From Planctomycetota bacterium (GTDB lineage: Bacteria; Planctomycetota; Phycisphaerae; Sedimentisphaerales; Anaerobacaceae): a stretch of DNA of 50,364 bases. Position numbers and translations under genes: made by a program. Below the pieces are notes generated by a model that saw only the letters and a program-made list of their open reading frames with translations, did not search any database and was not told the DNA's origin. The stretch lies in assembly GCA_022563885.1 (NCBI GenBank), contig JADFMM010000011.1, positions 1-50,364 on the forward strand. The letters are read 5' to 3'. This document shows, one piece after another, positions 18,151 to 41,502 of the stretch (positions within the stretch are counted from its first letter, which is position 1; each line of letters opens with the position of its first letter).

Positions 18151-18539
18151 TAAGCTTGTTCAACACTGTCTTCAATGGCGTCAGAGGTCATCGACTGCAC
18201 AGCGGACCGTCTATCGGGGAAGAACTTGAAAATCTTGTCGAGGTTGGTGATCTTGAACACCCGCTGAAGTTGACTGTTCGTGTTGCAGATCGCCACCAAT
18301 CCCTCCCAGTCTAACAGCCTCGCCCGAGTCTCAAGAATCAACCCCAGCACTTGAGAGGAGAAGAAACTCACCTGATCGAAGTCAAAGATCACTCTGCCCG
18401 GCTGGTTCTCGTCGATAAAGGTCTTTAACAGGCGAGCAGATTGGGCAATGCCGTCCAGGTCGCTCACAATGCTCTCGGTAAACTCGACCACGGCAACGCC
18501 GCCTTCGTTCACAATTCGGATGTCCGCCCGTTCGTTCAT
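18150..18539 (-). CDS. STAS-domain anti-sigma factor antagonist
   Basis: STAS proteins of the SpoIIAA/RsbV type release a sigma factor by binding its anti-sigma kinase, switched by phosphorylation of one serine. The 129-residue product has the usual order: an early VAVVEFTESIVSD strand-turn, VIFDFDQVSFFSSQVLGLIL with the candidate phospho-serines Ser61/Ser62, then LVAICNTNSQLQRVFKITNL. The usual D-S-S-G-L motif is F-S-S-Q-V here, so it is divergent, and phosphorylation should not be assumed. The ATG at 18539 starts the domain. No partner kinase is adjacent. The TAG stop is fused to the inverted-repeat element that follows, so the last residues (DSVEQA) may be affected by the insertion. Confidence 0.88.
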   Translation of the reverse strand: MNERADIRIVNEGGVAVVEFTESIVSDLDGIAQSARLLKTFIDENQPGRVIFDFDQVSFFSSQVLGLILETRARLLDWEGLVAICNTNSQLQRVFKITNLDKIFKFFPDRRSAVQSMTSDAIEDSVEQA

Positions 18540-18605
18540 GGGTGCTGTTTGGCCCTCTCAATAAGTTCGTCACCTATTATCCCGTATTGATTCGGCCTCG
18601 TCGAG

Positions 18606-18628
18606 AGTTATTTCTTGCCGGTCCCTAA
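18606..18628. repeat. Solo terminus of element family 1
   Basis: These 23 bases are identical to the right end of copy A (18131-18153), including the three bases outside the inverted repeat. Nothing on the left resembles the rest of the element, so this is an isolated end, left by deletion or produced by abortive insertion. Confidence 0.75.
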
Positions 18629-18667
18629 CCTCCGCGACTTGCATTCCCCCATCCCTGGGCGTAGGCT

Positions 18668-18818
18668 AGGCTTTGTCAGAGAACTCCATCGTCGGCCCGA
18701 GAGCGAGTGTTTTTTCGTCTGGCAAAGACGGCGAAGCAGGCGATATTGGTTTCATCGTCGATGCAGCCGGGCGAAAAACAAGCCGCTCGAAGCCAGATCG
18801 AGTTTTCTGACACAGCCT
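18668..18818. mobile_element. MITE-like element, family 2, full copy (151 bp)
   Basis: The left end reads AGGCTTTGTCAGAGAACTC and the right end, on the other strand, AGGCTGTGTCAGAAAACTC. The inner right arm reads TCGATCTGGCTTCGAGCGGC on that strand, and the same run recurs at 42995-43012. No coding capacity was found. Related copies lie at 21213-21303, 41529-41560, 42976-43013 and, as a core fragment, 40736-40880. Confidence 0.75.
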
Positions 18819-18889
18819 TGACTCTTTCAGAATAATCCTTCGTCAAGTCGTTGTGACCGCCCAGTTTGTAAAGTAAAGAGCACAGGACT

Positions 18890-20872
18890 ATGAGACACAG
18901 CGAGCAGGAACGCGCCATTGGGCTTCTCCTGTCCGATGAGGGGCCACTCGCCGAGACGCTGGACCACTACGAGGTACGGCCCCAGCAGAGGGAGATGGCC
19001 TCTGCCGTCTACCGGGCCTTTACGTCCAAGCGTCATCTGGCCGTTGAGGCGGGCACCGGTGTGGGCAAGACCTTTGCCTATCTCGTGCCGGCCATAGAAC
19101 ACACGGCCCAAGAGGGTGGCAAGGTCCTGATCAGCACCTTCACGATCACACTCCAGGAGCAACTACTCCTCAAGGACCTGCCCTTGCTCGACACGTGTCT
19201 GTCCCGTGGCTTTACTGCCAAACTGGCCAAGGGGCGGGGCAACTATGTCTGCCGGCGGCGGCTCAACTTCGCCTCGAGTCGGGCCCATCGCCTCTTGGGC
19301 GGCTATGCCGCCGAACTCGAGAGGCTGCAGACTTGGGCCGCCCAAACGGAGGACGGCTCCCTGGCCGATTGTGACTTCCTCCCCAAGAGCACCGTGTGGG
19401 ACAAGGTCAAGAGCGAACATGGTAACTGCCGAGGACGGTCCTGCGACCACCACGAGGACTGTTTCTATTGGCGGGCCCGTCGAGAACTGGAAACAGCGGA
19501 CATCGTCGTCGCCAACCATGCCCTGCTCTTCAGCGACCTGACGCTGAAACAGGAGGGCTATGCCCTGATGCCGGATTACAGCGCCGTCGTGCTGGATGAA
19601 GCGCATACGGTGGAGCGCGTCGCGGAGGACCACTTCGGCCTCAACATAGGCTACCAGCGTGTCAGCTACGTGCTGGACAGTCTTTACAACCCGCGTACCC
19701 GCCGCGGCCTCTTGGTAGATAGCAAGGCGGGCAGCGCCATTGACACCCTCTGTGAAGCCCACTCTCAAGCCGCCACCTTCTTCGAAGCCGTGACCCAGTG
19801 GCACGACCGAAACAGGCAGAAGACCCAGGGACGGTGTGAGCCGCACGTAGTGGAGGACTGCCTCACCGGCCCACTCAAAGAGGTCACGCGTCTCCTGCGC
19901 CAAGAGATCGCCGCGAGCGACGATGAAGATGAAAAGGGAGAGATGACCCGCTACGCCGACCTCTGTAAGGCCCTGGTACGGGACACCAAGGCCTTCCTGA
20001 AACAGCCGGACGACGGCCATGTCTACTGGATCGATTCAGAAGCGCACGACATCCGCTCGGTCCGCTTACGGAGTGCGCCCATCGATGTGGGCCCTGATCT
20101 GCAGCGCTGCCTGTATGAGCCCTTTGACTCCATCGTCCTCACCAGCGCCACCCTCAGCACCGGCGGCATCCAAGACAAGAAGGGATTCGACTTCTTTATC
20201 TCCCGCATCGGCCTCACGGAGTATGACGGTCTGCAGTTGGGCTCTCCCTTCGACTACGAGCGGAATGTCACGATCTACATAGAGAAGGATCTTCCCAATC
20301 CCAATGCACCGGAATTCGTCGAGTCCGCCACGGAGACCATCAAGACCTACCTCAACAAGACCGACGGTCGAGCCTTCGTCCTCTTCACCAGCTACCGCAT
20401 GCTGGACCGGATCGCCGACCAGATCGAGAGCTGGTGTCGGCAAGAAGAGATCACTCTGCTCCGCCAGGGCGGCCACCTCGACCGTTCGGCCTTGCTAACG
20501 CGATTCAAAGCGCCGGGTCGTCACACCTTGTTTGGCACGGACAGTTTCTGGCAAGGCGTCGATGTCCCCGGCGAGGCGCTGCAAAACGTGATCATCACGC
20601 GTCTGCCCTTCGCCGTGCCCGATCAACCCCTGCTGGCCGGTCGCCTGGAGCAGATTCGCGATGCGGGCGGCAATCCCTTCTTTGACTACCAACTGCCCGC
20701 CGCGATCATCAAGTTCAAACAGGGCTTCGGCCGCCTCATCCGTTCCAAGAGCGACAGTGGCATCGTCGTAATCCTGGATAGCCGCATCGCCAGCAAACCC
20801 TATGGCATGCAGTTCCTGGCCAGCATCCCCAAGTGTCGCGTGGAAATAGTGTCCAGGAAAAATGATCCGTGA
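18890..20872 (+). CDS. dinG: DinG/XPD-family superfamily 2 DNA helicase
   Basis: DinG-type helicases are 5'-3' translocases that resolve R-loops, D-loops and G-quadruplexes. The 660-residue product has a Walker A (AGTGVGKT, residues 54-61), DEAH at 236-239 and motif VI QGFGRLIRS near the C terminus. Four cysteines, Cys121, Cys180, Cys185 and Cys191, lie between motifs I and II and match the iron-sulfur cluster of XPD/DinG helicases. LTSATLSTGG and GTDSFWQGVDVPG are further conserved blocks. No exonuclease domain is fused at the N terminus. An AGGA sits shortly upstream of the ATG at 18890. The stop overlaps a remnant ORF at 20862. Confidence 0.93.
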   Translation: MRHSEQERAIGLLLSDEGPLAETLDHYEVRPQQREMASAVYRAFTSKRHLAVEAGTGVGKTFAYLVPAIEHTAQEGGKVLISTFTITLQEQLLLKDLPLLDTCLSRGFTAKLAKGRGNYVCRRRLNFASSRAHRLLGGYAAELERLQTWAAQTEDGSLADCDFLPKSTVWDKVKSEHGNCRGRSCDHHEDCFYWRARRELETADIVVANHALLFSDLTLKQEGYALMPDYSAVVLDEAHTVERVAEDHFGLNIGYQRVSYVLDSLYNPRTRRGLLVDSKAGSAIDTLCEAHSQAATFFEAVTQWHDRNRQKTQGRCEPHVVEDCLTGPLKEVTRLLRQEIAASDDEDEKGEMTRYADLCKALVRDTKAFLKQPDDGHVYWIDSEAHDIRSVRLRSAPIDVGPDLQRCLYEPFDSIVLTSATLSTGGIQDKKGFDFFISRIGLTEYDGLQLGSPFDYERNVTIYIEKDLPNPNAPEFVESATETIKTYLNKTDGRAFVLFTSYRMLDRIADQIESWCRQEEITLLRQGGHLDRSALLTRFKAPGRHTLFGTDSFWQGVDVPGEALQNVIITRLPFAVPDQPLLAGRLEQIRDAGGNPFFDYQLPAAIIKFKQGFGRLIRSKSDSGIVVILDSRIASKPYGMQFLASIPKCRVEIVSRKNDP

Positions 20873-21002
20873 GGATCACTTCAGAGAAACGCACTTGCTG
20901 CCCGCCCTGAAAGCAGGATTCATTGAGATAACCCTCTCTAGTATACCGGGGAGCAGCAAGCGAGAATACCGCCTGACCAAGAAAGGCCAGGCAATCGTAT
21001 AA
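20862..21002 (+). pseudogene. C-terminal fragment of an AlbA_2/RecG-like transcriptional regulator
   Basis: A 46-codon frame starts inside the dinG stop region and reads HFRETHLLPALKAGFIEITL, then REYRLTKKGQAIV and a stop. This resembles the C-terminal winged-helix end of AlbA_2/HATPase-type putative regulators, where a similar 'FR...L.PAL.AG.IE.T.P' phrase is followed by 'YRLT.KG'. The catalytic N-terminal part is absent, so it is a relic. It lies just upstream of the defence-like AAA gene. The match is from memory of the family, not from a search. Confidence 0.55.
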
Positions 21003-21328
21003 GGGCGAATACAGCGATAGGAGGGCTCAAAAGAAACCGTTGCAGCAATACGACGCGTCGCGAGCTATTCGACGACGCCAAGGCGCCATCGACGCACAGC
21101 GGGAAGACTAACCGTCAACTTGCAAAACAGTTGATGTCATTGCGGAGTATGCGGACGCTGTTTACTTTTCGCTGGCGGCTTGTATGATAAGTTTCAAACG
21201 TATCTCTGTGCGAGGCTCTGTCTGAAAACTCGATCTGGCTTTCCCTCGGTTCTGAGCCTTAGGGTCGAAGACGGCCCGACGACGGGGTCTTCAGACGGAG
21301 CCTAGCAGAAGACCGGAGTTAATAAACC
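21003..21328. other. Spacer between the regulator relic and the AAA-DUF4276 pair
   Basis: This 326-bp stretch contains no supportable gene. Its right part is occupied by a family 2 element (21213-21303). GGAG at 21315-21318 serves as a ribosome-binding site for the AAA gene at 21329. Confidence 0.55.
21213..21303. mobile_element. MITE-like element, family 2, short copy (91 bp)
   Basis: The left end is AGGCTCTGTCTGAAAACTC, continuing with GATCTGGCTT as in the full copy. The right end on the other strand is AGGCTCCGTCTGAAGAC. The centre differs from the 151-bp copy. It ends 25 bp before the AAA ATPase start codon and so lies within its leader region. Confidence 0.68.
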
Positions 21329-22537
21329 ATGAATACTACTATCGAAAGCATACGCCTTAAAAACTTCAAGGCCTTTAAGGACGTCACCATACGCGATATT
21401 CCGCGAATGTGCGTGGTCGTGGGCGCGAACGGCACAGGGAAATCGACTTTGTTTGACGTCTTCGGCTTCCTTCGCGATTCCCTGACGAACAATGTGCAGA
21501 TCGCCTTAAGCAAACGCGGCGGCTTCAAGGAAGTCAGGACCCGGGATGCAGAAGGAGCCATCGAAATCGAGTTGAAGTTCCGGTTTCATATGACCACGAA
21601 AACCACCCAAAAAACACCTCTCGCAACATACACCCTCGCGCTCAATGAGAGAAACGGACAGGTGTTTATTGAACGCGAAGAACTTCGCTATAGGCGAGGA
21701 AGTCATGGTCAACCGTGGAAGTTTTTAGCCTTCTACAATGGCGAGGGGGAGGCCGTCACCAATGAGTTCGATGATGTGGACGATGAATCTAAGCTCTCAC
21801 GAGAAAAACAGACTTTGGCGAAACCAAGTATCCTGGCGATCAAGGGACTGGCGCAATTCAAACGCTACCCAGCGGTTATGGCACTTGGCCAGATGATAGA
21901 AAACTGGCATGTCTCCGATTTCCATATCAGCGCCGCCAGAAGCTTGCCCGATGCGGGATACGCTGAACATTTGTCGCGTGAAGGAGAGAATCTTGCTCTG
22001 GTTACGCAATACCTTTACGAACACAAAAGGGATGTATTCGATGCGATCTTAATCAAAATGGCCAACCGGGTTCCCGGCATTTCAAAAGTGGAAGCCAAGA
22101 CTTCGGAGGAAGGAAGAATTCTCTTGCGATTTCAGGACGGCGCCTTCAAGGACCCGTTTCTCGCCCGTTATGTCTCTGACGGCACCATCAAGATGTTTGC
22201 TTACCTTGTGCTTCTTTACGACCCTTCCCCGCATCCGTTGCTCTGTGTGGAAGAACCGGAAAATCAACTTTACCCGAAGCTCCTATATGAATTGGCCGAA
22301 GAATTCAGTGCCTATGCGTCCAAAGGAGGCCAGGTATTCATCTCTACTCATTCCCCTGACTTTCTCAATGCTGTTGAGTTGGACAGCGTTTTTTGGCTGG
22401 CCAAGGACAAAGAAAGTGGGGTGACGAATGTCAAACGCGCGAAAGACGACAAACAGATCGCAGCATTCATGGCCGAGGGCGACAAGATGGGTTACCTGTG
22501 GAAGCAGGGATTTTTTGGAGGGGTCGATCCCCTATGA
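21329..22537 (+). CDS. AAA_21/OLD-like ABC-type ATPase, probable defence ATPase
   Basis: The 402-residue product is an SMC/OLD-like ATPase. It begins with IESIRLKNFKAFKDV, then a Walker A VVGANGTGKSTL (Lys38). A signature-like YVSDGTIKMFAYL precedes the Walker B LLCVEEPENQLYP near residue 305, and an H-loop ISTHSPDFLN lies near residue 338. There is no fused TOPRIM domain; the next gene, overlapping by four bases, supplies a TOPRIM-like protein. This split resembles OLD nucleases and several two-gene phage-defence systems. An older regulator relic and a MITE-like element lie just upstream, consistent with a variable locus. The ATG at 21329 is preceded by GGAG. The defence role is inference from architecture. 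Confidence 0.87.
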   Translation: MNTTIESIRLKNFKAFKDVTIRDIPRMCVVVGANGTGKSTLFDVFGFLRDSLTNNVQIALSKRGGFKEVRTRDAEGAIEIELKFRFHMTTKTTQKTPLATYTLALNERNGQVFIEREELRYRRGSHGQPWKFLAFYNGEGEAVTNEFDDVDDESKLSREKQTLAKPSILAIKGLAQFKRYPAVMALGQMIENWHVSDFHISAARSLPDAGYAEHLSREGENLALVTQYLYEHKRDVFDAILIKMANRVPGISKVEAKTSEEGRILLRFQDGAFKDPFLARYVSDGTIKMFAYLVLLYDPSPHPLLCVEEPENQLYPKLLYELAEEFSAYASKGGQVFISTHSPDFLNAVELDSVFWLAKDKESGVTNVKRAKDDKQIAAFMAEGDKMGYLWKQGFFGGVDPL

Positions 22538-23100
22538 GGACGCTTGTCGTTTTTACAGAAGAAATGTCTGCCAAGGTTATGCTGGAATCACTATTGCCGC
22601 GTCTGTTGCCGCAGGAGATCCATATTCAGTGTATCGATTTTGAGGGCAAGCAGGACCTGGAGAAGCAACTGCCCATAAAGTTGAAGGGTTGGAGAACGCG
22701 TGACACCTGCTTCGTCATCCTACGAGACCAGGACAGCGGCAACTGCCATCACATCAAGAGAAATCTCAGGAGCATTTGCGATGCGGCAAACAAGCCGGAG
22801 GTATTAATTCGTATTGCATGTCACGAACTGGAGAGCTGGTATTGGGGAGACTTAGCCGCAGTGGAGGCCAGTCTGGAAATCGACGGATTAACCGCTTTTC
22901 AAGCAAAGGCGAAGTACCGGAACCCGGACGCTATCATACATCCTTCCGCTAAACTAAAAAAGGTCACTAAGAATCGCTATCAAAAGGTCGGAGGATCCCG
23001 CGTCATCGGAAGACACTTATCACTGGATAATAACCGCTCAAGGAGCTTCCGAAATTTCATACATGGGGTTCGCCGGATCATTGCCTTCGAAGATGATTGA
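22534..23100 (+). CDS. DUF4276 family protein, TOPRIM-like partner of the AAA ATPase
   Basis: The 188-residue product starts with MRTLVVFTEEMSAKVMLESL, with the early Glu9/Glu10 expected of a TOPRIM fold. FVILRDQDSGNC supplies the D-x-D (Asp65, Asp67), and RIACHELESWYWGDL is the characteristic C-terminal block of DUF4276. Toprim folds in OLD-type systems cut DNA or RNA; whether this one is a nuclease is not known. The start is the ATG at 22534 with GGAGGGG upstream; it overlaps the AAA stop as ATGA, so the two are surely co-translated. A longer upstream frame from 22393 lies inside the AAA gene and is rejected. Confidence 0.85.
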   Translation: MRTLVVFTEEMSAKVMLESLLPRLLPQEIHIQCIDFEGKQDLEKQLPIKLKGWRTRDTCFVILRDQDSGNCHHIKRNLRSICDAANKPEVLIRIACHELESWYWGDLAAVEASLEIDGLTAFQAKAKYRNPDAIIHPSAKLKKVTKNRYQKVGGSRVIGRHLSLDNNRSRSFRNFIHGVRRIIAFEDD

Positions 23101-23230
23101 AAACTGCCAATGCGAACCAATGAATGCGACTGAAATCATGGTGTATACACATGTATTTGGTCTTCTGGATTCGACCTATAACTGACTCAAGGGGTTCAGA
23201 AGCAAGTCCTCAACGAAATGGAGCAACACC

Positions 23231-24910
23231 ATGCGTCTACTAGGCTTAATGATCTTACTCTGGCCCATCAGTGTTGCCTATGCTCAGGAAACAAGCAATC
23301 CCGATCCCAACCGCTTTTCGAAGAGCTTCGCCGCCTTTGCCGAGCAGGATCGCGATCATCCCCTTGAGAAGAGAGGCACTGTCTTCGTCGGCAGTTCCAG
23401 TGTGCGGATGCTGGACATCCCCAAGTACTTCCCCGGGATCGTTGCGCTGAATCGGGGCTTCGGCGGCGCCCACATCTCCGATGTCAATCACTACCTGGAG
23501 CAGGCCGTGCTTCAGTATGAACCGAACACAGTGGTCTTCTTCTGCGGCGGCAATGACCTCTGGTCCGGCAAGTCACCGGCCCAGGTCCGGGCAGACTTCG
23601 ACGCATTTACGCAACGCCTCTTCGATCGAGTGCCGAAGGCCAAGCTGATCGTCCTGGCGACACGGCCCAGTCCCAAGCGTATCCGCATCATCGAGCAGGA
23701 ACACCAACTGAACGCGCTCTTCGAGGCCGCGGCGGATCGGGACAAACGCGTGACCTATCTAGACGGATCGGCCTCGCGTTTTCTGGATGAAGCGGGAAAG
23801 CCCCGACCGGAACTCTATGCCGAAGACCAACTCCACATGAACCACGCCGGCTATCTGATCTGGGGCGAAATCATCCGGCCTCACCTCAGGCCCCTGTTCT
23901 TGGTGGGTGGGGACATTTCCACCCTGGCCAAGATCGAGCAACTCGGCGGGACCTTTCGTCACGACAACGATGCGGGTGACTGTATCGCCATCCTCAGAAG
24001 CCAAGGATGGAACTGCTTTCGCCTGCGTCTCTTCGTGCAACCCACGATGCGCAACGCCGTGGTCCAGGACCTGCCCTACACGCTGGCCCTGGCCAAACGA
24101 ATCAAGGAGTCAGGTGCTCAACTGCTGCTGAACTTCCATTACAGCGACACTTGGGCCGATCCCGGGCACCAGAACAAGCCGGCCGCCTGGGCCGGTCTGG
24201 ACTTCGACGCCCTGGTACGTCGGGTCAAAAGCTATAGTGCGGAGACCATCGCCGCCTTCAAGGCCGTGGATGTCTTGCCGGACATCGTGCAGGTCGGCAA
24301 CGAAATCACGCCCGGCTTTCTCTGGCCCGATGGCAAGGTCTATCGGGAGAACGACTCGGTCGAACACTGGTCCGAGTTCACCACCCTGCTCAAGGCCGCC
24401 ATTGAAGGTGTCAGGCAACCTTTGGATGAGACGGACCTGGTGCGTGTTATGATTCACATCGACGGCGGAGGTCGGCGCGCCAAGACCAGGTACTTCTTCG
24501 ATCGCATCCTAAAGCATGGCGTTCAGTTCGACGTCATCGGCCAGAGCTACTATCCCTGGTGGCATGGCACGCTGGAAGAGGCGCGGCAAAACCTAAGCAA
24601 AACGGCAGTGGCCTATCGCAAGGACATCGTCATCGTAGAGACCGCCTACCCTTGGCGGGGCGCGCAGTGGTGGGCCAATCGGGACAACATGGCCTGGCCG
24701 ATCACCTCGGAGGGCCAATCCACCTTTCTCGCGGAACTCGCCGATACGGTCCGTCAGACCGCGGAGAATCGGGGTTTGGGTATCATCTATTGGTACCCTG
24801 AGGCGATCAACGTCGCGGGTATGAATATCTGGAACGGCGGCGCGACCGCCATCTTCGATGAGGAGGGTAATGTGTTGCCTGGTGCCAAGGCGATGGCGCC
24901 AGCTGAGTGA
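23231..24910 (+). CDS. Secreted SGNH hydrolase fused to GH53 endo-beta-1,4-galactanase
   Basis: A Sec signal peptide ends near residue 18 (AYAQE). Residues 50-220 form an SGNH/GDSL hydrolase: GSSSV at 54-58, FCGGND with Asn108, and DQLHMNHAGY with Asp199 and His202. From about 228 a glycoside hydrolase family 53 domain follows: GDISTLAKIEQLGG, VQVGNEITPG with the acid/base Glu358, and IVIVETAYPW with the nucleophile Glu470. GH53 enzymes cleave beta-1,4-galactan side chains of pectin. The fused SGNH domain could remove acyl groups from the same substrate; that is inference. A GGAG lies just before the ATG. It converges with a sulfatase gene, the first of the degradation island. Confidence 0.9.
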   Translation: MRLLGLMILLWPISVAYAQETSNPDPNRFSKSFAAFAEQDRDHPLEKRGTVFVGSSSVRMLDIPKYFPGIVALNRGFGGAHISDVNHYLEQAVLQYEPNTVVFFCGGNDLWSGKSPAQVRADFDAFTQRLFDRVPKAKLIVLATRPSPKRIRIIEQEHQLNALFEAAADRDKRVTYLDGSASRFLDEAGKPRPELYAEDQLHMNHAGYLIWGEIIRPHLRPLFLVGGDISTLAKIEQLGGTFRHDNDAGDCIAILRSQGWNCFRLRLFVQPTMRNAVVQDLPYTLALAKRIKESGAQLLLNFHYSDTWADPGHQNKPAAWAGLDFDALVRRVKSYSAETIAAFKAVDVLPDIVQVGNEITPGFLWPDGKVYRENDSVEHWSEFTTLLKAAIEGVRQPLDETDLVRVMIHIDGGGRRAKTRYFFDRILKHGVQFDVIGQSYYPWWHGTLEEARQNLSKTAVAYRKDIVIVETAYPWRGAQWWANRDNMAWPITSEGQSTFLAELADTVRQTAENRGLGIIYWYPEAINVAGMNIWNGGATAIFDEEGNVLPGAKAMAPAE

Positions 24911-24973
24911 TGCGGGCCAGGCGCTGTCAAGAACGAAGGAGTGCCGAGTTGTGTGATGCCGCTCCCAGCGTGC

Positions 24974-26452
24974 TTAGTAATCCCGAAAGGGGCCTCTCGG
25001 TTCGGCGGCATCCATGGCTCGACGCCAACGATCAAAATGCGCCTGCATCTCTTTCAACTTGTCGGGCCGCTCCTGCGACAGATCATGTTGTTCGCCAATA
25101 TCGCCAGATAGATCGAACAATCCACCGCCCTGCTCGGACGCGACCCACTTCCAATGGCCGACTCGGGCGGCCTTGTCCTCTTTGCGTTGCCAGAACATTT
25201 CGGTTCGCGGCGACGCCGCCGAGCCGGTCAAGACAGGCATCATGTCATAGCCGTCCAAAACGAGACCCGCAGGCGGTCGCAGACCCGAAGCCTTCAAAAG
25301 GGTCGGTAGAATCTCCATGGAGGAGAGAAAGGCATCACGGGTGGTGCCGGCCGGGATGCGGCCTGGGTAGCGAATGATACAGGGCACGCGAATGCCGCCT
25401 TCGAACATGCGGCCTTTGCCGCCCCGCAAGGGTGCATTGTCACTGCTCCCACCTCCGCCGTTGTCGGAGAAGAAAATGACGATGGTGTTGTCTGAGAGCT
25501 TGTATTCGTCCAGCACTGCCAGAATCGCACCGATGGCTTGATCCATGCAGGTGATGGCCGCCAGGTTTTCCAGACGCCTCAAGGCCCGGTTGGCCACCCG
25601 GGCCGGTTTGCCATACTTCGATCTCTGGTCATAGCCGGCCTGCGCCTGTAACTCCGGGTAGGCGGCCTTGAAGCGATCGGGGCCTTGAGCAGCGCTGCGG
25701 ATCTTGGGGTCAAGATTGGAGGCACTGTGCGGGGCGTTGAAGGGGACATAGAGGAAGAAGGGCTGTTTATGGTATTGGCTGAGGAATCGCAGGGCCTCGC
25801 GCTGAAACAGGGTCGTGCAGTAGACCCCCTTGTCTTCTGTGGTGGGACGGTTGTTGCGATACATGGAGGGCACGCCGTAGCGCTCGTGCGTATAGTAGTC
25901 GATCCCCGTATTGCAGAATCCGTAGAAGTCATCAAATCCCCGCGCCAAAGGCAAAAACCTCTTATGGACACCCAAATCCCATTTGCCAAAGATGCCACTG
26001 ATGTAGCCGGCGGGTTTGAGCAACTCCGGCAGCAGGCGTTCCCGCACATCCATTCCGCCGATGCGCTCAAAGGTCACGGCGTATTCAGCGGGCGTATAGT
26101 GGTGTCCATAGTCAGGTGCTTCATTGCGGATCATGTCATATACGCCGTGACGCTGGGGATAGCGTCCGGTTAGCAAACTACCCCGACTGGGGGTGCAAGC
26201 CGGCCAGGTCACGTAAAAATTGGTCAGCCGGACCCCTTGAGCGGCCAAGCTATCCAAGTGGGGTGTCTTGACTTCGCTGCTGCCAAAGCAACCCAGGTCG
26301 TGATAGCCTTGATCGTCACTGACCATCAATAAGACATTTGGAGGACGATCGTCCGCTATGGCAATGCTTGCCACCAACATCGAATAGATGCAAACGACAA
26401 TACTCGATAGGACGCAAGCTGTGTTCCGCACAATGTCACCTGAGTCTAACAC
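24974..26452 (-). CDS. Secreted sulfatase (formylglycine type), arylsulfatase-like
   Basis: The 492-residue product has an N-terminal hydrophobic export signal ending near residue 33. PNVLLMVSDDQGYHDLGCFG binds the active-site metal. PACTPSRGSLLTGR carries the CxPxR motif with Cys86, which a formylglycine-generating enzyme must convert. VIFFSDNGGGG and GGIRVPCIIRYPGR are further family blocks. The substrate cannot be assigned by eye; sulfated polysaccharide is likely from context. The frame begins with GTG at 26452 and includes the whole signal region; an ATG at 26380 would cut it short. It lies 410 bp downstream of the PIG-L gene and is probably separate from the operon behind it. Confidence 0.9.
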   Translation of the reverse strand: MLDSGDIVRNTACVLSSIVVCIYSMLVASIAIADDRPPNVLLMVSDDQGYHDLGCFGSSEVKTPHLDSLAAQGVRLTNFYVTWPACTPSRGSLLTGRYPQRHGVYDMIRNEAPDYGHHYTPAEYAVTFERIGGMDVRERLLPELLKPAGYISGIFGKWDLGVHKRFLPLARGFDDFYGFCNTGIDYYTHERYGVPSMYRNNRPTTEDKGVYCTTLFQREALRFLSQYHKQPFFLYVPFNAPHSASNLDPKIRSAAQGPDRFKAAYPELQAQAGYDQRSKYGKPARVANRALRRLENLAAITCMDQAIGAILAVLDEYKLSDNTIVIFFSDNGGGGSSDNAPLRGGKGRMFEGGIRVPCIIRYPGRIPAGTTRDAFLSSMEILPTLLKASGLRPPAGLVLDGYDMMPVLTGSAASPRTEMFWQRKEDKAARVGHWKWVASEQGGGLFDLSGDIGEQHDLSQERPDKLKEMQAHFDRWRRAMDAAEPRGPFRDY

Positions 26453-27879: not shown

Positions 27880-29316
27880 TCACTTGATCAGTTGTATCTC
27901 AACCGGCTTGATGCTCTGCCGATGTGTCTCTGCAATCTGCCTGAGTTTCTCGATCACCTCGGGATGGTGTGCCGCGATGTTATACTTCTCAGACGGGTCA
28001 TGCTCTAAATGGTACAGCTCAGGCGTGTCGTGCTCTTGACGATCGGGACCGTCGCCGTAACACCCCTCGGTGATGAAGTGAGCCTTCCACGGTCCGACCC
28101 GCACGGCATAGAGTTTCTCCTCACGCCAATAGAAGACACGATCGCGTGGGCTCGTTCGGGTTTTACCCTGGAGTAGCGGCGCCAGGTTGTAACCGTCCAG
28201 TATGCGATCCGTGGGAGCCACAGCCCCTGAGAGGGCACAGAAGGTCGGCAGCAGATCCATGGTCGCCCCCATCTCCATCTGCACGCCGGGCTTCACCTGC
28301 CCCGGCCACCAGAAGATCGTGGGCTCACGCATGCCCCCTTCGAAGGTCGTGCCCTTGCCGTGACGCAGCAATCCCCCCGACCCGCCATGCGTATGGAAGG
28401 GCAGCCAGGGACCATTGTCGGAGGTAAACACCACCAGCGTGTCCTCGGCCAGGTCCAGATCCCTGAGCGTGTCTAAAATCTGGCCCACACCGGCGTCGAT
28501 CTCTTCGATCACGTCACCGAAGATCCCCCGTCGGCTCTTGCCAACGTGACGCTCACCCGCATAGAGCGGGATGTGCGGTAGATTGTGGGCGAGGTAGACG
28601 AAGAAGGGCCGGTCCCGATTCTCCTTGATGAAGGCAATCGCCTTATCCGTATAGCGCTGGGTCAGCGTGTGCTGATTGGCCGGCCGCTCGATGACCTCGG
28701 TGTCATGAAGGATGGGTACGTCGTATTGTGCGATGGGCGCGACATAGTGGGCATCCTTCCGTCCGGTCTTCTGATAATTGGGAAAGCCCTTCTGACCATC
28801 CATGTCATTGGAGTAGGGTATCCCCCAATAGGTGTCGAAACCATGTGCCGTGGGTAGAAACTGCGGCAAGTGGCCCAGGTGCCATTTGCCGACCGCCGCG
28901 GTGGCATAGCCGACCGTTTTCAGCAGTTCGGCGATCGTCGTTTCACTGGCAGGCAGTCCCCCCTTGGAATTCGGAAACAACACCCTGCGCTCGGCCGACA
29001 TCATGCCGCTACGGTTGGGCAACCTGCCGGTGAGAAGGGCCGCCCGGCTAGGGGTGCAGACCGAGGCGCCCACGTAGAAGTTGGTCCACTTCTGTCCCTC
29101 GGCCGCCATGCGGTCCAGATTCGGTGTACGTATGGTGGGGTGACCAAAGCAACCGAGATCCCCATAACCCAAATCGTCGCAGAAGATGACGATGAAATTC
29201 GGCTTTCGATCGGGTCGGGCCGCGGGGCAGAGGGATGGCCAATAGAGAAGGAGGAGTGCGACACACCCAACGAAATGGATGGCGGGACGTGTGACATGAG
29301 CGTTTCTGCAATTCAT
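27880..29316 (-). CDS. Secreted sulfatase (formylglycine type)
   Basis: The 478-residue product begins with an export signal and KPNFIVIFCDDLGYGDLGCF. GASVCTPSRAALLTGRLP carries the CxPxR motif with Cys87 as formylglycine precursor. VVFTSDNGPWLPFHTHGG and GMREPTIFWWPGQV are family blocks. An AGGA sits about 10 bases before the ATG. It differs from the neighbouring sulfatase in the central domain, so the two are likely to cut different sulfate positions. It is 51 bp downstream of the DUF1080 gene and 63 bp upstream of the PIG-L gene, in an operon. Confidence 0.91.
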   Translation of the reverse strand: MNCRNAHVTRPAIHFVGCVALLLLYWPSLCPAARPDRKPNFIVIFCDDLGYGDLGCFGHPTIRTPNLDRMAAEGQKWTNFYVGASVCTPSRAALLTGRLPNRSGMMSAERRVLFPNSKGGLPASETTIAELLKTVGYATAAVGKWHLGHLPQFLPTAHGFDTYWGIPYSNDMDGQKGFPNYQKTGRKDAHYVAPIAQYDVPILHDTEVIERPANQHTLTQRYTDKAIAFIKENRDRPFFVYLAHNLPHIPLYAGERHVGKSRRGIFGDVIEEIDAGVGQILDTLRDLDLAEDTLVVFTSDNGPWLPFHTHGGSGGLLRHGKGTTFEGGMREPTIFWWPGQVKPGVQMEMGATMDLLPTFCALSGAVAPTDRILDGYNLAPLLQGKTRTSPRDRVFYWREEKLYAVRVGPWKAHFITEGCYGDGPDRQEHDTPELYHLEHDPSEKYNIAAHHPEVIEKLRQIAETHRQSIKPVEIQLIK

Positions 29317-29367
29317 AGGCGATATTTCCTTTCATCCCATCTGTGCGGCAAGGGTGCCCTTCTTGTC

Positions 29368-31986
29368 CTAGAGGCGTTTGATCCGTATATTGCGATACCA
29401 GACCGGCCGGCCGTGGTCCTGCAGACCAATGTGCCCTTTCCGGGCAAAGTCTTTGATCGCGGTTGCGAACTTGTTGCGTCTTCCATCCGGGTTTTGGTTG
29501 CCGGTGGTCCAGTGGTCCACATTCATGTCGATGATCTGCTTGCCATTGAGCACGACCTGGATCAAATTGTCCTGGCAGGTGACTCTGCACTGATTCCACT
29601 CACCGGGTGGCCGAATGGCATTATCCGTCGGAGCCAGGCAGTCATAGATCGCACCGGCGGTCCCCTTATTGCTCAGTCCCTGCCTGCCATAGGAGTTGGC
29701 GACCTGGATTTCCATGCCCGTATAGACCGGATCCTGCAGGTTTGGCGTTCTGATGAAGATGCCGCTATTGGTCCTATCCGTCACCCTGTATTCCAACTCC
29801 AGAACGAAGTTGTCATACTGCTCTCGGGTCCAGAGGTAATCGAGATTGTGCTCTTTGCCATCCATCTCACGCCGGACCGTCAAGACGCCGTCGTCGATCA
29901 CCCAGGCATTGTCCGAACCCGGGCCCTTCATCCAATGATCCGTCAGGTCTTTTTCCCGGCCGCCAAACAGCGTGACGGCGCCGCTGGAGGTCTCGACGTC
30001 CGTCCCATCGAGAGATCGAATCCAGATGTTGCGAAACTGGATGAGGCTCGAGGCGGGACTGTATGTGCCGGTCTTCTTATTGAACCCACCGTGGTGTTGC
30101 AGGACAATCGGCCCCCGGGCCGGTATCCCTGGAATCTGCGCGTCTTCGATAACGATTTTCCCATTGAGCATCATCGTTACACTTTCGCCCACCATGGTAA
30201 TATCCATGGAGTTCCACTGCCCAACAGGATAATCCGCATGCTCCCTGGGCACGGCTGCGGCCCGCTGCTCGGGGGTCAGGGATTTGTCTTTGCGAATGGA
30301 CCACATCTCTCCCGATCCCACCGGCCAACACCAGAGATTGACCTGGCTCCTGCCGGTGCCGCGGAGGAAGATACCCGAATCGGCGTTGGGCGTGAGCGTC
30401 TTGATGACCTTGCCGTTCTCATCCGTCTTCAGCGACCCGTCCGGAAGGATGGTAGGCATGTTATAGAGCCCCGAAGTCCTCTTAAACCGCCATTCGATAT
30501 GGAGGGCATAGTCCCCATAAGAGGCCTCCGTCACCAGATTCTTACTGCCCGTGGCCTCGGACATGGCATCGTAGTCAATGACCCCATCGACAACCTTCCA
30601 GTGGCCGTTGTCTCCCGCTGGGACCTTCCAACCACTCAGGTCTTTCCCGTTAAAGAGCGTCTTGTACCGGGACCACTCGCGCCAGGTGGGATAGGTGCCA
30701 TGGGCCGGCAGCTTCTTGCGTACGCCTGCGGTGCTGGGGTTGCCATGGTTATAGAAAACGTACAGGCCGCCCTTGCCGGCAATGACCACATCGTTCCGTC
30801 CGTCTGCATTCATGTCTTTGATATTGATCTTCATGCCCACACTGACGACGTAGTTCGGCACGGGATTCTGCATCTCGCCGGGATAGTGGGGCAGATGATT
30901 GAAGGAGAGAATGTGTCGCTCGAACTTGCCTCCCTGGATGTCATACCAGAAGACGTAGAGCGGTTCGCCCGCCCCAATATCCGCGCCGTGGTGTGCGAAC
31001 AAACGTTTTCCCGCCACCAGGTCGAGCTTACCGTCACCATTGAGATCTCCCAGGGCCATGGTGTGGAACTGACTGTATTCGGTCTCGATCCAATGGGTTT
31101 CGAAGGTCCGATTGCCCCCTCGGTCGACCCTCTGTTGCAGCCACGCCAGGCCATAGGCATGGGCGGATCCGATCAGGATATCGTTCAAGCCATCCTCGTC
31201 CACATCGTGGACCAGGATGGGATGCGACCCGCTGCCGGCTTGCTGTTTGGCCGCGGCAAATCGATAGTCGGCATGAAAGGGCCAGGTCTTGGCCCGGACG
31301 TTTTTCGGTTGTTCATACCACCCGACCGGTGTCACGATATCCACGCGCCCGTCCATGTTAATATCACCGAGGCCATTGCCGTGCATGTCTCCTTGGGTGC
31401 CAATGACGTGTTCCACAAACCAGGGGGCACGATCGATGTGTTCCAGCCACGTCATCCCCTGCCCCTCGACCAGACTCCAGTGGTTCACCAGGATGTCCTC
31501 ATCACCGTCACCGTCGATGTCACCATGAATCACGCCCTCCATGTTGTAGGCCAGGTGAATTCGCGTAGACTTCCATACGTCTTCATTGTTACCGGGATTC
31601 TCATACCAGAAGGCCCCCTTCATGAACATCCAACCGGAACTGACCACATCGGGTCTGCCGTCGAAGTTCACATCCATGGCGAATTCACTGTTATCTTCCG
31701 TCTCGGGTCCGTTGATCTCGGCCCCGTCACGAAAACGTGTGTGCTTGGTCCAATGCGGATTCTCATACCAGTTCCGACCACTGGTGATGTCCAAATCTCC
31801 ATCCCCGTCTATATCCAGGACCGAGGCACATTCGCTAAAGGGACCAAACCAGTAGGTGTGGTTGGCCGGATCATGAACGGGCCCATCGATCTTGACGGGG
31901 CTAAAGATTGTTTCCGTCGCGAACAGAGGTTGCGGAACATTCAGCGACAGACAGAAGAGACCGATCCAAAGCAAACGGCGTTTCAT
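29368..31986 (-). CDS. Secreted FG-GAP/VCBS repeat protein with two DUF1080 domains
   Basis: The 872-residue product starts with a Sec signal ending near residue 24. Residues 25-430 hold FG-GAP-type calcium-binding repeats, such as DIDGDGDLDI, DVNFDGRPDVV, DIDGDGDEDIL and DVDEDGLNDIL. The first DUF1080 (3-keto-disaccharide hydrolase-like) domain is at about 440-660 (YKTLFNGKDLSGWKV, then SGIFLRG). The second, at about 670-872, begins VTLFGGREKDL and has NSGIFIRT. DUF1080 domains are frequent in planctomycete polysaccharide loci and have a lectin-like fold. A beta-propeller fused to two such domains suggests a large extracellular substrate-binding or hydrolysing protein. It lies between DUF1501 and sulfatase genes in an operon. 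Confidence 0.88.
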   Translation of the reverse strand: MKRRLLWIGLFCLSLNVPQPLFATETIFSPVKIDGPVHDPANHTYWFGPFSECASVLDIDGDGDLDITSGRNWYENPHWTKHTRFRDGAEINGPETEDNSEFAMDVNFDGRPDVVSSGWMFMKGAFWYENPGNNEDVWKSTRIHLAYNMEGVIHGDIDGDGDEDILVNHWSLVEGQGMTWLEHIDRAPWFVEHVIGTQGDMHGNGLGDINMDGRVDIVTPVGWYEQPKNVRAKTWPFHADYRFAAAKQQAGSGSHPILVHDVDEDGLNDILIGSAHAYGLAWLQQRVDRGGNRTFETHWIETEYSQFHTMALGDLNGDGKLDLVAGKRLFAHHGADIGAGEPLYVFWYDIQGGKFERHILSFNHLPHYPGEMQNPVPNYVVSVGMKINIKDMNADGRNDVVIAGKGGLYVFYNHGNPSTAGVRKKLPAHGTYPTWREWSRYKTLFNGKDLSGWKVPAGDNGHWKVVDGVIDYDAMSEATGSKNLVTEASYGDYALHIEWRFKRTSGLYNMPTILPDGSLKTDENGKVIKTLTPNADSGIFLRGTGRSQVNLWCWPVGSGEMWSIRKDKSLTPEQRAAAVPREHADYPVGQWNSMDITMVGESVTMMLNGKIVIEDAQIPGIPARGPIVLQHHGGFNKKTGTYSPASSLIQFRNIWIRSLDGTDVETSSGAVTLFGGREKDLTDHWMKGPGSDNAWVIDDGVLTVRREMDGKEHNLDYLWTREQYDNFVLELEYRVTDRTNSGIFIRTPNLQDPVYTGMEIQVANSYGRQGLSNKGTAGAIYDCLAPTDNAIRPPGEWNQCRVTCQDNLIQVVLNGKQIIDMNVDHWTTGNQNPDGRRNKFATAIKDFARKGHIGLQDHGRPVWYRNIRIKRL

Positions 31987-32055
31987 GGTGATACTCTTTC
32001 AACTAAGGATGGACATTCCAAAAAACCACAAACACACAATATTGGGACACAGGGC

Positions 32056-33507
32056 TTAACCCAAAATCTCTCGTACGACTCTGCCATGAACGTCGGTCAG
32101 CCGGAAGTGACGACCCTGGTAGGTATAGGTGAGGCGTTCGTGATCGAAACCGAGGCAGTGAAGCAGCGTGGCTTGGATGTCATGAACGTGAATCGGATCT
32201 TTGGCGATGTGGAATCCCAGATCATCGGTGGCCCCGTAGACCATTCCCGGCTTAATCCCGCCGCCAGCCAACCACATGGTGAAGGCCTGGGGATGGTGAT
32301 CTCGCCCCAGCTTGCGACCCAGGGCCGGATTGTTTTCTACCATGGGTGTGCGGCCGAACTCGCCACCCCAGATGACCAGCGTCTCATCCAGGAGGCCCCG
32401 CTGCTTCAGATCCTTGATCAGGGCGGCGGATGCCCGATCGGTCGCCTTGCAATTCTTCTTCAGATTCCCGGCCACGTCGGAATGGGCATCCCAGCCCTCG
32501 TGGTAGATGTTGATGAAGCGGACACCCCGTTCCACCATGCGTCTGGCCAGGAGACAGGCCCGGGCGAAACTCGCCTTGCCGGGGTCGCATCCGTAGAGCG
32601 TCAATGTCGCCTCGCTCTCCTGGGACAGATCCATCAATTCCGGGGCCGAGGACTGCAGACGATAGGCCATTTCATAGGAGGCGATGCGCGTCTGAATCTC
32701 GGGATCGGCAAGCGCCTCGTGTCTCATCCGGTTGAGTTCACCGATCAGATCCAAGGAGTCTCTCTGTAAGGCCTGATCGACGCCTTGGGGATTGCTGACG
32801 TTGAGGATGGGGTCCCCCTGATTGCGGAAGCGCACCCCGGCATAGACACTGGACAGAAACCCGCTGGACCAATTGGCCGACCCGCCGCTGATCCCCGAGC
32901 CGGTCGACATCACCACGAAGGCCGGCAGGTCACGCGCCTCGCTGCCCAAGCCGTAGGTGACCCAGGAGCCGATACTGGGTCGTCCCGGCTGCGCGAAACC
33001 CGTGTTGAAGAATATCTGGGCGGGGGCATGGTTGAATTGGTCGGTATGCATCGATTTGACCAAGCAGATGTCATCCACCACTTCCGCCAAGTGGGGCAGC
33101 ATCTCGGAGAGTTCCGTGCCACTTTGTCCATGCCTGGCGAACTTGTACTGCGGCCCCAAGACGGCTGCGTCGGGTCGAATGAAGGCATAACGCTGGCTGC
33201 CAATGACCGAAGGCGGTAGGGGCTTGCCCTCCAGCTTGGCCAGTTCCGGTTTGTAATCGAAGAGATCCAATTGGCTGGGGGCACCGGCCATGAACAGGTG
33301 GATCACACTCTTGGCCTTGGGTGTAAAATGTGGCTCGCGCAGGGCAAAGGCATTGGAAACGCCTGCGCCTGCCCTGCCCGACACTGCGTCGGTCAGCAGG
33401 CTCGCCAGTGCGATCTTTCCCAGGCCGACACCACATTGGTTGAGGAACCAGCGGCGAGTCCGCTGCCCGGGATCCCGATTCGACTCAAATGGCTCTTGAC
33501 AGTTCAT
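32056..33507 (-). CDS. DUF1501 protein with Tat signal
   Basis: The 483-residue product has a twin-arginine signal, RTRRWFLNQCGVGLGKIALA, so it is exported folded. Family blocks include SVIHLFMAGAPSQLDLFDYK near the N terminus, then HAPAQIFFNTGFAQPGRPSI, GVRFINIYHEGWDAHSDV and VIWGGEFGRTPMVE. DUF1501 belongs to the alkaline phosphatase/sulfatase fold superfamily. It almost always neighbours PSD1 cytochromes, as here. The exact reaction is unknown. The ATG overlaps the PSD1 stop as ATGA (33504-33507), so the two are coupled. It is 69 bp upstream of the DUF1080 gene. Confidence 0.92.
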   Translation of the reverse strand: MNCQEPFESNRDPGQRTRRWFLNQCGVGLGKIALASLLTDAVSGRAGAGVSNAFALREPHFTPKAKSVIHLFMAGAPSQLDLFDYKPELAKLEGKPLPPSVIGSQRYAFIRPDAAVLGPQYKFARHGQSGTELSEMLPHLAEVVDDICLVKSMHTDQFNHAPAQIFFNTGFAQPGRPSIGSWVTYGLGSEARDLPAFVVMSTGSGISGGSANWSSGFLSSVYAGVRFRNQGDPILNVSNPQGVDQALQRDSLDLIGELNRMRHEALADPEIQTRIASYEMAYRLQSSAPELMDLSQESEATLTLYGCDPGKASFARACLLARRMVERGVRFINIYHEGWDAHSDVAGNLKKNCKATDRASAALIKDLKQRGLLDETLVIWGGEFGRTPMVENNPALGRKLGRDHHPQAFTMWLAGGGIKPGMVYGATDDLGFHIAKDPIHVHDIQATLLHCLGFDHERLTYTYQGRHFRLTDVHGRVVREILG

Positions 33508-40651: not shown

Positions 40652-40998
40652 CGTTCTTCTCCTAAGTTTTCTCGAATCACTGCCACCATGAACTGCCTGC
40701 TTAAAGCCCCTAACAACATAATTCCGCATTCAAACGGCTTATTCTACGTCTGGACGGCGTCAGGCTCCATCGACCATCCTCGGATGGCTTGCGTCGAGTT
40801 CCCCACGCTGGCGCTCCGGAGAAGCCTTGCCAGACGCAGAAACGCTCGTTCTTGGTGCGACGATTCATTTTGATAGGCACTCTAAGCCTCTCATGCATGG
40901 CATGTGTTAGTGAAAGGTGTGCCAGTCGCAGTAACTTCACCATTGGACATTCCTGTTCGATATTCTGCGCTTCGTTTCTGCAGGGAATGATCGGTGGT
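40652..40998. repeat. Spacer with diverged family 2 core and NFTxGHS repeat
   Basis: No gene is supported in this 347-bp spacer. Bases 40736-40880 are similar to the core of the full family 2 element (TTGCCAGACG followed by AAACGCTCG on this strand). Bases 40928-40973 hold the repeat that recurs at 16152-16196, encoding SNFTIGHSCSIFC in one frame. The NTF2-like gene ends at 40999, minus strand, so a promoter for the regulatory-like gene also lies in this spacer. Confidence 0.6.
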
Positions 40999-41502
40999 CT
41001 ACTTCAGTTTATTCCATTCCTCTTCGGTGGCCTTCGATTTCTGGTATTCCATCATGATTTTCCAGTCCTTCTTTTTGATAAGCAGGGCTTCAAAGTGGAT
41101 GTAATCTCTGACGGTCTTTCCATCAGCACTCACTGTGGAATAGAGAAACATCCCCGTCTCGTGCGCCGTCGTCTCATCACCCAGGCGCTGGCTGAATCTA
41201 AACGAGACACTCGCTTTGATCTTACCCGACTTCGTATCGATAAACCCCTGTTGCCACTTCATCAGCGCTATGGCCAAGGGATAGGCCTCACTGCGCGTGC
41301 CAGCCACCAGAACGCCGTCGGGATGACAAGTCGCTCGATAGCCTTCAAAGTCCCCCTTATTGACACAACGAGACACTTCAGACCAGTAAGCATCTAATTC
41401 CTTAATCCTCTGTTGGCTTATCTCCACCCCGTTGACGCCTTCTGCAGCAGCGACCACCGGGACGATAATTGACATGAAGAATAAAACGCTCATCTTTTTC
41501 AT
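40999..41502 (-). CDS. Exported NTF2/SnoaL-like small protein
   Basis: The product is 167 residues from the ATG at 41502, preceded by AGAAAGGA at a good distance; a TTG seven codons upstream is possible. A Sec signal (KKMSVLFFMSIIVPVVAAAE) is followed by an NTF2-like alpha+beta domain. The first helix KELDAYWSEVSRCVNKGDFE, then YRATCHPDGVLV and a beta-sheet with SVSFRFSQRL and TTAHETGMFLYS, fit DUF4440/SnoaL-like folds. Members bind small molecules or act as cyclases; no catalytic residue is clear here. It is followed by a family 2 mini-element and the ceramidase-like gene on the same strand. Confidence 0.72.
   Translation of the reverse strand: MKKMSVLFFMSIIVPVVAAAEGVNGVEISQQRIKELDAYWSEVSRCVNKGDFEGYRATCHPDGVLVAGTRSEAYPLAIALMKWQQGFIDTKSGKIKASVSFRFSQRLGDETTAHETGMFLYSTVSADGKTVRDYIHFEALLIKKKDWKIMMEYQKSKATEEEWNKLK

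Follow-up and report, generated by a model that had tools for sequence, protein, structure and literature searches.

The window, by which we mean the whole stretch of 50,364 nucleotides analysed, carries two adjacent and co-oriented genes at positions 21329 to 23100, here called A and B. As the sequence-only reading had proposed for this ATPase and DUF4276 pair, the stop codon of A and the start codon of B share an ATGA, because B starts at the ATG at 22534 and A ends at 22537. A longer ORF listed for B begins at an upstream TTG (22393); starting B at 22534 reproduces the 4-nt overlap typical of relatives. Profile searches suggested with that reading returned AAA_21 on A (E 4.6e-30) and DUF4276 on B (E 1.3e-16), both above the Pfam cut-off. 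Pfam gives DUF4276 no assigned function and names AAA_21 a putative AbiEii toxin. The features of the locus are listed below; residue conservation is counted over 81 homologues.

20862-21002, + strand: relic, a C-terminal winged-helix fragment of a Fic-like regulator (PF21247 Fic-like_C, E 6e-8, 46 aa)
21212-21304, no strand given: MITE- or REP-like palindrome, short and dispersed, directly upstream of A (from genome matches)
21329-22537, + strand: gene A, 402 aa, ABC-type ATPase of the AAA_21/AAA_15 kind, HEC-01 ATPase without a TOPRIM domain
21422-21448, + strand: Walker A of A, residues 32-40 (GANGTGKST) with Lys38; G32, N34, G37 and K38 identical in 81/81
22175-22186, + strand: ABC signature-like SDGT, residues 283-286 of A, identical in 81/81
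22238-22261, + strand: Walker B region of A, residues 304-311 (LLCVEEPE); E308 and E309 identical in 81/81
22349-22351, + strand: H-loop His341 of A, identical in 81/81
22534-22537, + strand: ATGA overlap of the A stop and B start (from the sequence; likewise 4 nt long in 70 of 84 related loci)
22534-23100, + strand: gene B, 188 aa, DUF4276, predicted nuclease with a TOPRIM and a helical domain
22558-22560, + strand: Glu9 of B, candidate TOPRIM glutamate, 81/81; metal A, compare E400 of Bp OLD
22726-22734, + strand: Asp65-x-Asp67 of B, candidate TOPRIM DxD, 81/81 each; analogy with Bp OLD D455/D457
22825-22833, + strand: Glu98-Leu-Glu100 of B, 81/81 each; E100 proposed to bind metal B, compare T506-x-E508 of Bp OLD
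22984-22986, + strand: Lys151 of B, proposed as the catalytic lysine in the helical domain, 75/81; analogy with Bp OLD K562

The regulator relic expected at the flank was present and overlaps the end of the helicase gene upstream. Repeats had also been said to flank the pair, which was borne out on the upstream side: the repeat at 21212-21304 (~93 bp) matched at least 41 other places in the 6.5-Mb genome (E up to 1e-3, with scoring applied to 40 of the 199 candidates from a first look), and the copy in L116 lies in an intergenic gap and has clear inverted ends. It looks like a MITE or REP element. We found no repeat bracketing A and B on both sides, the matches obtained being short and weak, and the segment downstream of B (23101-23230) is single-copy in the genome.

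The other 31 ORFs of the window, compared with PADLOC at E 1e-20, matched only DinG-type helicase models and, once, a mad8-like model; among them we found no convincing defence gene besides A and B, no full MADS operon and no match to Hma models. No Rfam match occurred in 18500-26000. The helicase gene (18890-20872) was considered as a third component and rejected, because what lies upstream in the closest relative of the pair (L031) is a DNA polymerase III alpha gene, read from the opposite strand; Cas type IV labels on this helicase were discarded as generic helicase matches. Downstream of B, one ORF (23231-24910) encodes a fusion protein with a GDSL-like esterase domain and a GH53 domain, and a sulfatase adjoins on the other strand. 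Two more distant ORFs (28870-32766, 1299 aa; 40789-41394, 202 aa) had no Pfam match at E 0.001.

The scan of defence databases proposed earlier, when the exact type had been left open, named it: both proteins matched PADLOC HEC-01, A with PDLC04144 (E 8.9e-200, residues 4-401) and B with PDLC04143 (E 1.2e-80, residues 1-184). The next systems matched by A (AriA, PDC-M07 and mad3) were weaker by more than 150 orders of magnitude, and we rejected the AriA matches as generic ATPase matches. All 14 PADLOC matches of B at E up to 1 were HEC-01 models. As in HEC-01, the window holds two adjacent genes, A then B, with near full-length matches, co-oriented and overlapping in ATGA. PADLOC labels its best ATPase model HEC-01B and its best DUF4276 model HEC-01A, the reverse of the other HEC-01 models matched. 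HEC means Hma-embedded candidate, a name that records discovery; in contrast to the Hma embedding behind it, the copy in the window stands alone.

Judged by its sequence, the locus is thus a real, intact copy of a catalogued candidate defence system. Several HECs, including HEC-06, are described as active in the part of PMC12988326 available to us, which cites a 2024 preprint and does not name HEC-01 there. In our literature search the term DUF4276 occurred in no paper found, and no paper found described HEC-01 as a system, with the possible exception of PMC12724379 (D. piger prophages). HEC is absent from PMC9252829, and both DUF4276 and HEC-0 are absent from PMC13092281. Since both proteins match PADLOC HEC-01, the kind is already catalogued, although uncharacterised; our contribution is a proposal for its mode of action.

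Predicted folds and the candidate active site of B

Lys38 of A, singled out in the sequence-only reading, is the Walker A lysine, and the absence of a TOPRIM domain from A was upheld, no Pfam TOPRIM match appearing at E up to 1. The predicted model of A (pLDDT 91.8) was closest to SMC and Rad50 heads and to PtuA (Z about 20-22), ahead of OLD. Judged by sequence and model together, A is an intact ABC-type ATPase. Its tail contains four residues that are invariant among the 81 homologues (G384, G388, L390 and W391) and could form a docking surface for B.

The model of B (pLDDT 92.5, pTM 0.88) consists of four strands alternating with helices (3-8, 30-35, 58-66 and 91-96) followed by helices, the last at 170-182, an arrangement that corresponds to a TOPRIM domain plus a helical domain. 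Its best PDB match was 6nk8, the C-terminal region of a class 2 OLD (Z 12.4, 167 of 188 residues aligned, rmsd 3.7, identity 13%), followed by another class 2 OLD C-terminus (6njv, Z 10.6) and Ts OLD (6p74, Z 9.8). The matches after OLD were mostly unrelated folds with Z of at most 8.7; lumazine synthases reach that value, and a Z near 8 therefore carries little meaning for B. AriB of PARIS (8ux9_A) scored Z 8.0 and GajA Z 7.1. Foldseek returned only two chains of 6nk8 at E < 0.001. In a viral fold library no match passed E 0.001; the one lead was a phage protein resembling RloB (E 1.5e-2). Plain sequence searches of B against the PDB gave chance matches only, and against Pfam at E up to 1 DUF4276 was the sole match, OLD-like_TOPRIM (PF20469) being absent.

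The acidic residues that had been assigned to TOPRIM-like positions in B (Glu9/10, Asp65 and Asp67) were found in the sequence where they had been placed. In Bp OLD, according to the part of PMC6755086 available to us, metal A is served by E400, D455 and D457 and metal B by E404, T506 and E508, with help from K562 in the helical domain; the corresponding part of PMC7049728 describes Ts OLD as keeping this residue set with an arginine in place of the lysine. The candidate residues of B (E9, DxD, ExE and K151) follow in the same order as in Bp OLD, K151 being the first residue of a model helix (151-159). These equivalences rest on fold order and spacing, that of E98-x-E100 with T506-x-E508 on spacing and helix position. 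An hhalign comparison of B with 23 OLD-like C-termini placed E9 on the glutamate of the OLD VEG motif and DxD on DxD, at a weak probability of 20-29%. E404 has no equivalent residue in B, where position 13 is an Ala in the window's protein and in 72 of 81 homologues, so the metal B site is not fully matched. The TOPRIM fold and metal A site of B are well supported by the model and by conservation, and the metal B site and catalytic lysine are proposals drawn from analogy with OLD. The fold and invariant residues make DUF4276 a testable nuclease candidate with named positions (E9, D65, D67, E100 and K151), and they put HEC-01, perhaps together with MAD3-MAD4, alongside OLD, Gabija and PARIS.

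Pairing, defence context and transfer

We scanned for relatives with eight B sequences and analysed the best 80 of at least 550 confirmed loci, which belong to many phyla, together with four viral contigs from IMG/VR; phage genomes searched with B gave no match. An A-like ATPase lay just upstream of B in all 84 loci, with an overlap of 4 nt in 70, 1 nt in 10 and another arrangement in 4. Within the window's phylum, HMMs of A and B detected an A-like ORF at 28 of 29 other DUF4276 loci; in the remaining one (L025) a stop codon interrupts the DUF4276 match. The same was true of 20/20 longer stretches, mostly overlapping these 29 loci, and of 0/20 control stretches from the same genomes, 10 of which were shorter than the full 18.6 kb. 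Taken together, these counts establish that the neighbourhood of A and B is not due to chance.

The distances of A and B were correlated over 81 pairs including the window's (r 0.76; 0 of 999 permutations reached this value), in keeping with joint inheritance, and B diverged about 1.5 times as fast as A. These pairs leave out 4 of the 84 loci, in which A was truncated at a contig end or only partly covered by the BLAST match. Two loci stood out individually. In L024, B is open, and A is spread over two frames that overlap (243-539 and 389-1477), resembling a frameshift. In L109, identity to the window's proteins is 78% for A and 49% for B, an unusually wide difference that may reflect partner exchange.

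Ten chosen neighbours of the pair in related loci were scanned with PADLOC. The pair lies between HmaB and HmaC in two loci (L066 and L092) and is followed by HmaC in a third (L048); in others it sits between HsdS and HsdM (L054), directly before HsdR (L085) or after a DrmD-like helicase (L076), and the neighbour tested in L097 had no PADLOC match. On the Meiothermus plasmid pMtWR-220 the pair is inside a type I restriction-modification (R-M) locus, between the subunit S and R genes. On Synechocystis pSYSM it adjoins a cysteine desulfurase, with a phosphorothioation-associated methyltransferase and DUF4007 nearby. No defence gene is annotated near the pair on a Pseudanabaena plasmid, and in an Aeromonas record the region of the pair is without annotation.

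At E 1e-20, 104 neighbours matched 186 PADLOC families compared with 26 for 104 control ORFs. In these counts a single protein can contribute many families, and the control ORFs were taken from genomes different from those of the neighbours. Among 44 whole genomes, with loci chosen for long contigs, N6_Mtase occurred within 5 kb of the pair in at least 5 (0.51 expected, P 1.9e-4) and Methylase_S in at least 4 (0.41 expected, P 8.7e-4); within 15 kb the numbers were at least 6 (1.50 expected) and at least 5 (1.21 expected). All were counted by eye and are lower bounds, and the two enrichments are not independent because both genes often belong to the same R-M locus. Enrichment in defence islands, which the earlier reading had made its test, was thus seen in part: the pair occurs near N6_Mtase and Methylase_S above expectation, but most loci, the window's included, are outside islands, and most immediate neighbours of the relatives are ordinary, non-defence genes. 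Some relatives are within Hma, type I restriction or phosphorothioation loci, and most stand alone.

DUF4276 was detected in 51 of 294 genomes of the phylum and in none of the seven same-order genomes listed. The closest relative among the matches listed, L031, is in a Nitrospirae MAG (A 91% and B 80% identical, the latter 78% over the full alignment). For comparison, HemB of the window is 58% identical to that of the L031 genome and 64-65% identical to those of five same-order genomes; the sixth has 52% identity and the seventh no match. DNA similarity between the window and L031 was confined to 21340-23080, inside the two genes. Here dS was about 1 and dN/dS 0.05 for A and 0.11 for B. The G+C content is 0.50 for A and 0.49 for B, compared with 0.572 for the window. 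Because the common DNA is confined to the two genes, these sequence data fit horizontal transfer as a bare two-gene unit, under purifying selection. The cassette is common to very divergent bacteria. Its carrier pSYSM is a plasmid of a laboratory cyanobacterium, Synechocystis PCC 6803.

Comparison with known systems and proposed mode of action

In class 2 OLD proteins (Bp and Xcc OLD, GajA) the C-terminal TOPRIM and helical domains have the fold predicted for B, and E, DxD, ExE and K follow one another as they do in B, whereas the counterpart of E404 is missing from B. Class 2 OLD is one polypeptide, and the HEC-01 pair is two. OLD-like working rather than OLD proper is therefore the appropriate description: ATPase and TOPRIM are not in one polypeptide, as in OLD classes 1 and 2, but in two ORFs, the OLD-like_TOPRIM profile does not match B, and the TOPRIM fold with a class 2 helical domain is found in the predicted model, as fold only.

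In Gabija a GajB helicase follows GajA, whereas here the downstream gene is the GDSL/GH53 protein; the GajA model matched A at E 2.9e-17. In Septu, PtuA aligns end to end with the fold of A (Z 20-21), but its partner PtuB is an HNH protein, compared with the TOPRIM-like DUF4276 here. For MADS, A matches MAD3 (NF047739, E 1.5e-35) with 123.2 bits against an NCBIfam cut-off of 420, and B matches MAD4 very weakly (E 0.015) with 15.4 bits against a cut-off of 160, so that both stay far below the thresholds for that system. All nine MAD4 loci examined (L195-L203) contained an A-like (HEC-01A-like) ATPase, and one MAD4 protein (G021:C279) coincides with a sub-cut-off DUF4276 match, which gives MAD4 the look of a divergent DUF4276 protein.

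Fold, motif conservation and defence profiles thus agree with the earlier proposal of a split OLD-type ATPase and TOPRIM effector, a reading that is well supported by the predicted fold and the motifs. We consider it probable (roughly 70%) that A and B form a free-standing candidate defence cassette of the HEC-01 kind and act as an OLD nuclease would if divided between two polypeptides. A dimer of A would bind and restrain B, and a phage signal together with ATP would switch the A-B complex. B would then nick or cut nucleic acid, DNA more probably than RNA, at a two-metal site in which E9, D65 and D67 hold metal A and E100 metal B, with K151 assisting.

More tentatively, and with slightly less than an even chance in our estimation, HEC-01 would be a further OLD class, in which an ABC ATPase controls, as a separate protein, a free nuclease subunit of class 2 type with TOPRIM and helical domains and a two-metal site that includes a catalytic lysine, and the same A-B module would have been taken up whole by Hma, type I R-M and phosphorothioation loci and by MADS (as MAD3-MAD4). 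If this is true, one plug-in sensor-nuclease unit underlies several named systems, since each would have taken up the same module.

PARIS (AriA/AriB), which has been called a possible class 4 OLD, offers the strongest alternative, with the same layout of an ABC ATPase and a TOPRIM protein on separate genes. A would then sense a phage protein and free B as a toxin that cuts tRNA or other RNA and aborts infection. TOPRIM domains also occur in RNases such as RNase M5, as mentioned in the part of PMC6755086 available to us, and B does match AriB (8ux9_A). However, B resembles OLD C-termini much more closely than it does AriB (Z 12.4 against 8.0), no AriB model is among the 14 PADLOC matches of B, and A scores HEC-01 far above AriA. 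We regard such toxin release as rather unlikely.

Two overlapped genes that spread horizontally, mostly outside defence islands, and an ATPase family named for AbiEii toxin would also suit a self-maintaining toxin-antitoxin or addiction module whose protection from phage is only incidental. The repeated embedding of the pair in Hma and type I R-M operons and its enrichment near R-M genes argue against this, and we judge it improbable. A chromosomal DNA-repair or recombination pair, composed of an SMC/Rad50-like head and a nuclease and having no defence role, is more doubtful still. The best folds of A are indeed SMC and Rad50 heads, and an OLD-family ATPase from an archaeon reportedly functions in the cell cycle, not in defence (in the part of PMC12796447 available to us), but the patchy occurrence of DUF4276 (51/294 genomes of the phylum, 0/7 listed for the order), transfer as a cassette and foreign base composition all point away from such a role. 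A decayed or non-functional remnant, which the regulator relic and dispersed repeat just upstream might suggest, is very hard to reconcile with two open frames and motifs that are all intact, and we rejected degeneration of the pair on its dN/dS values relative to L031.
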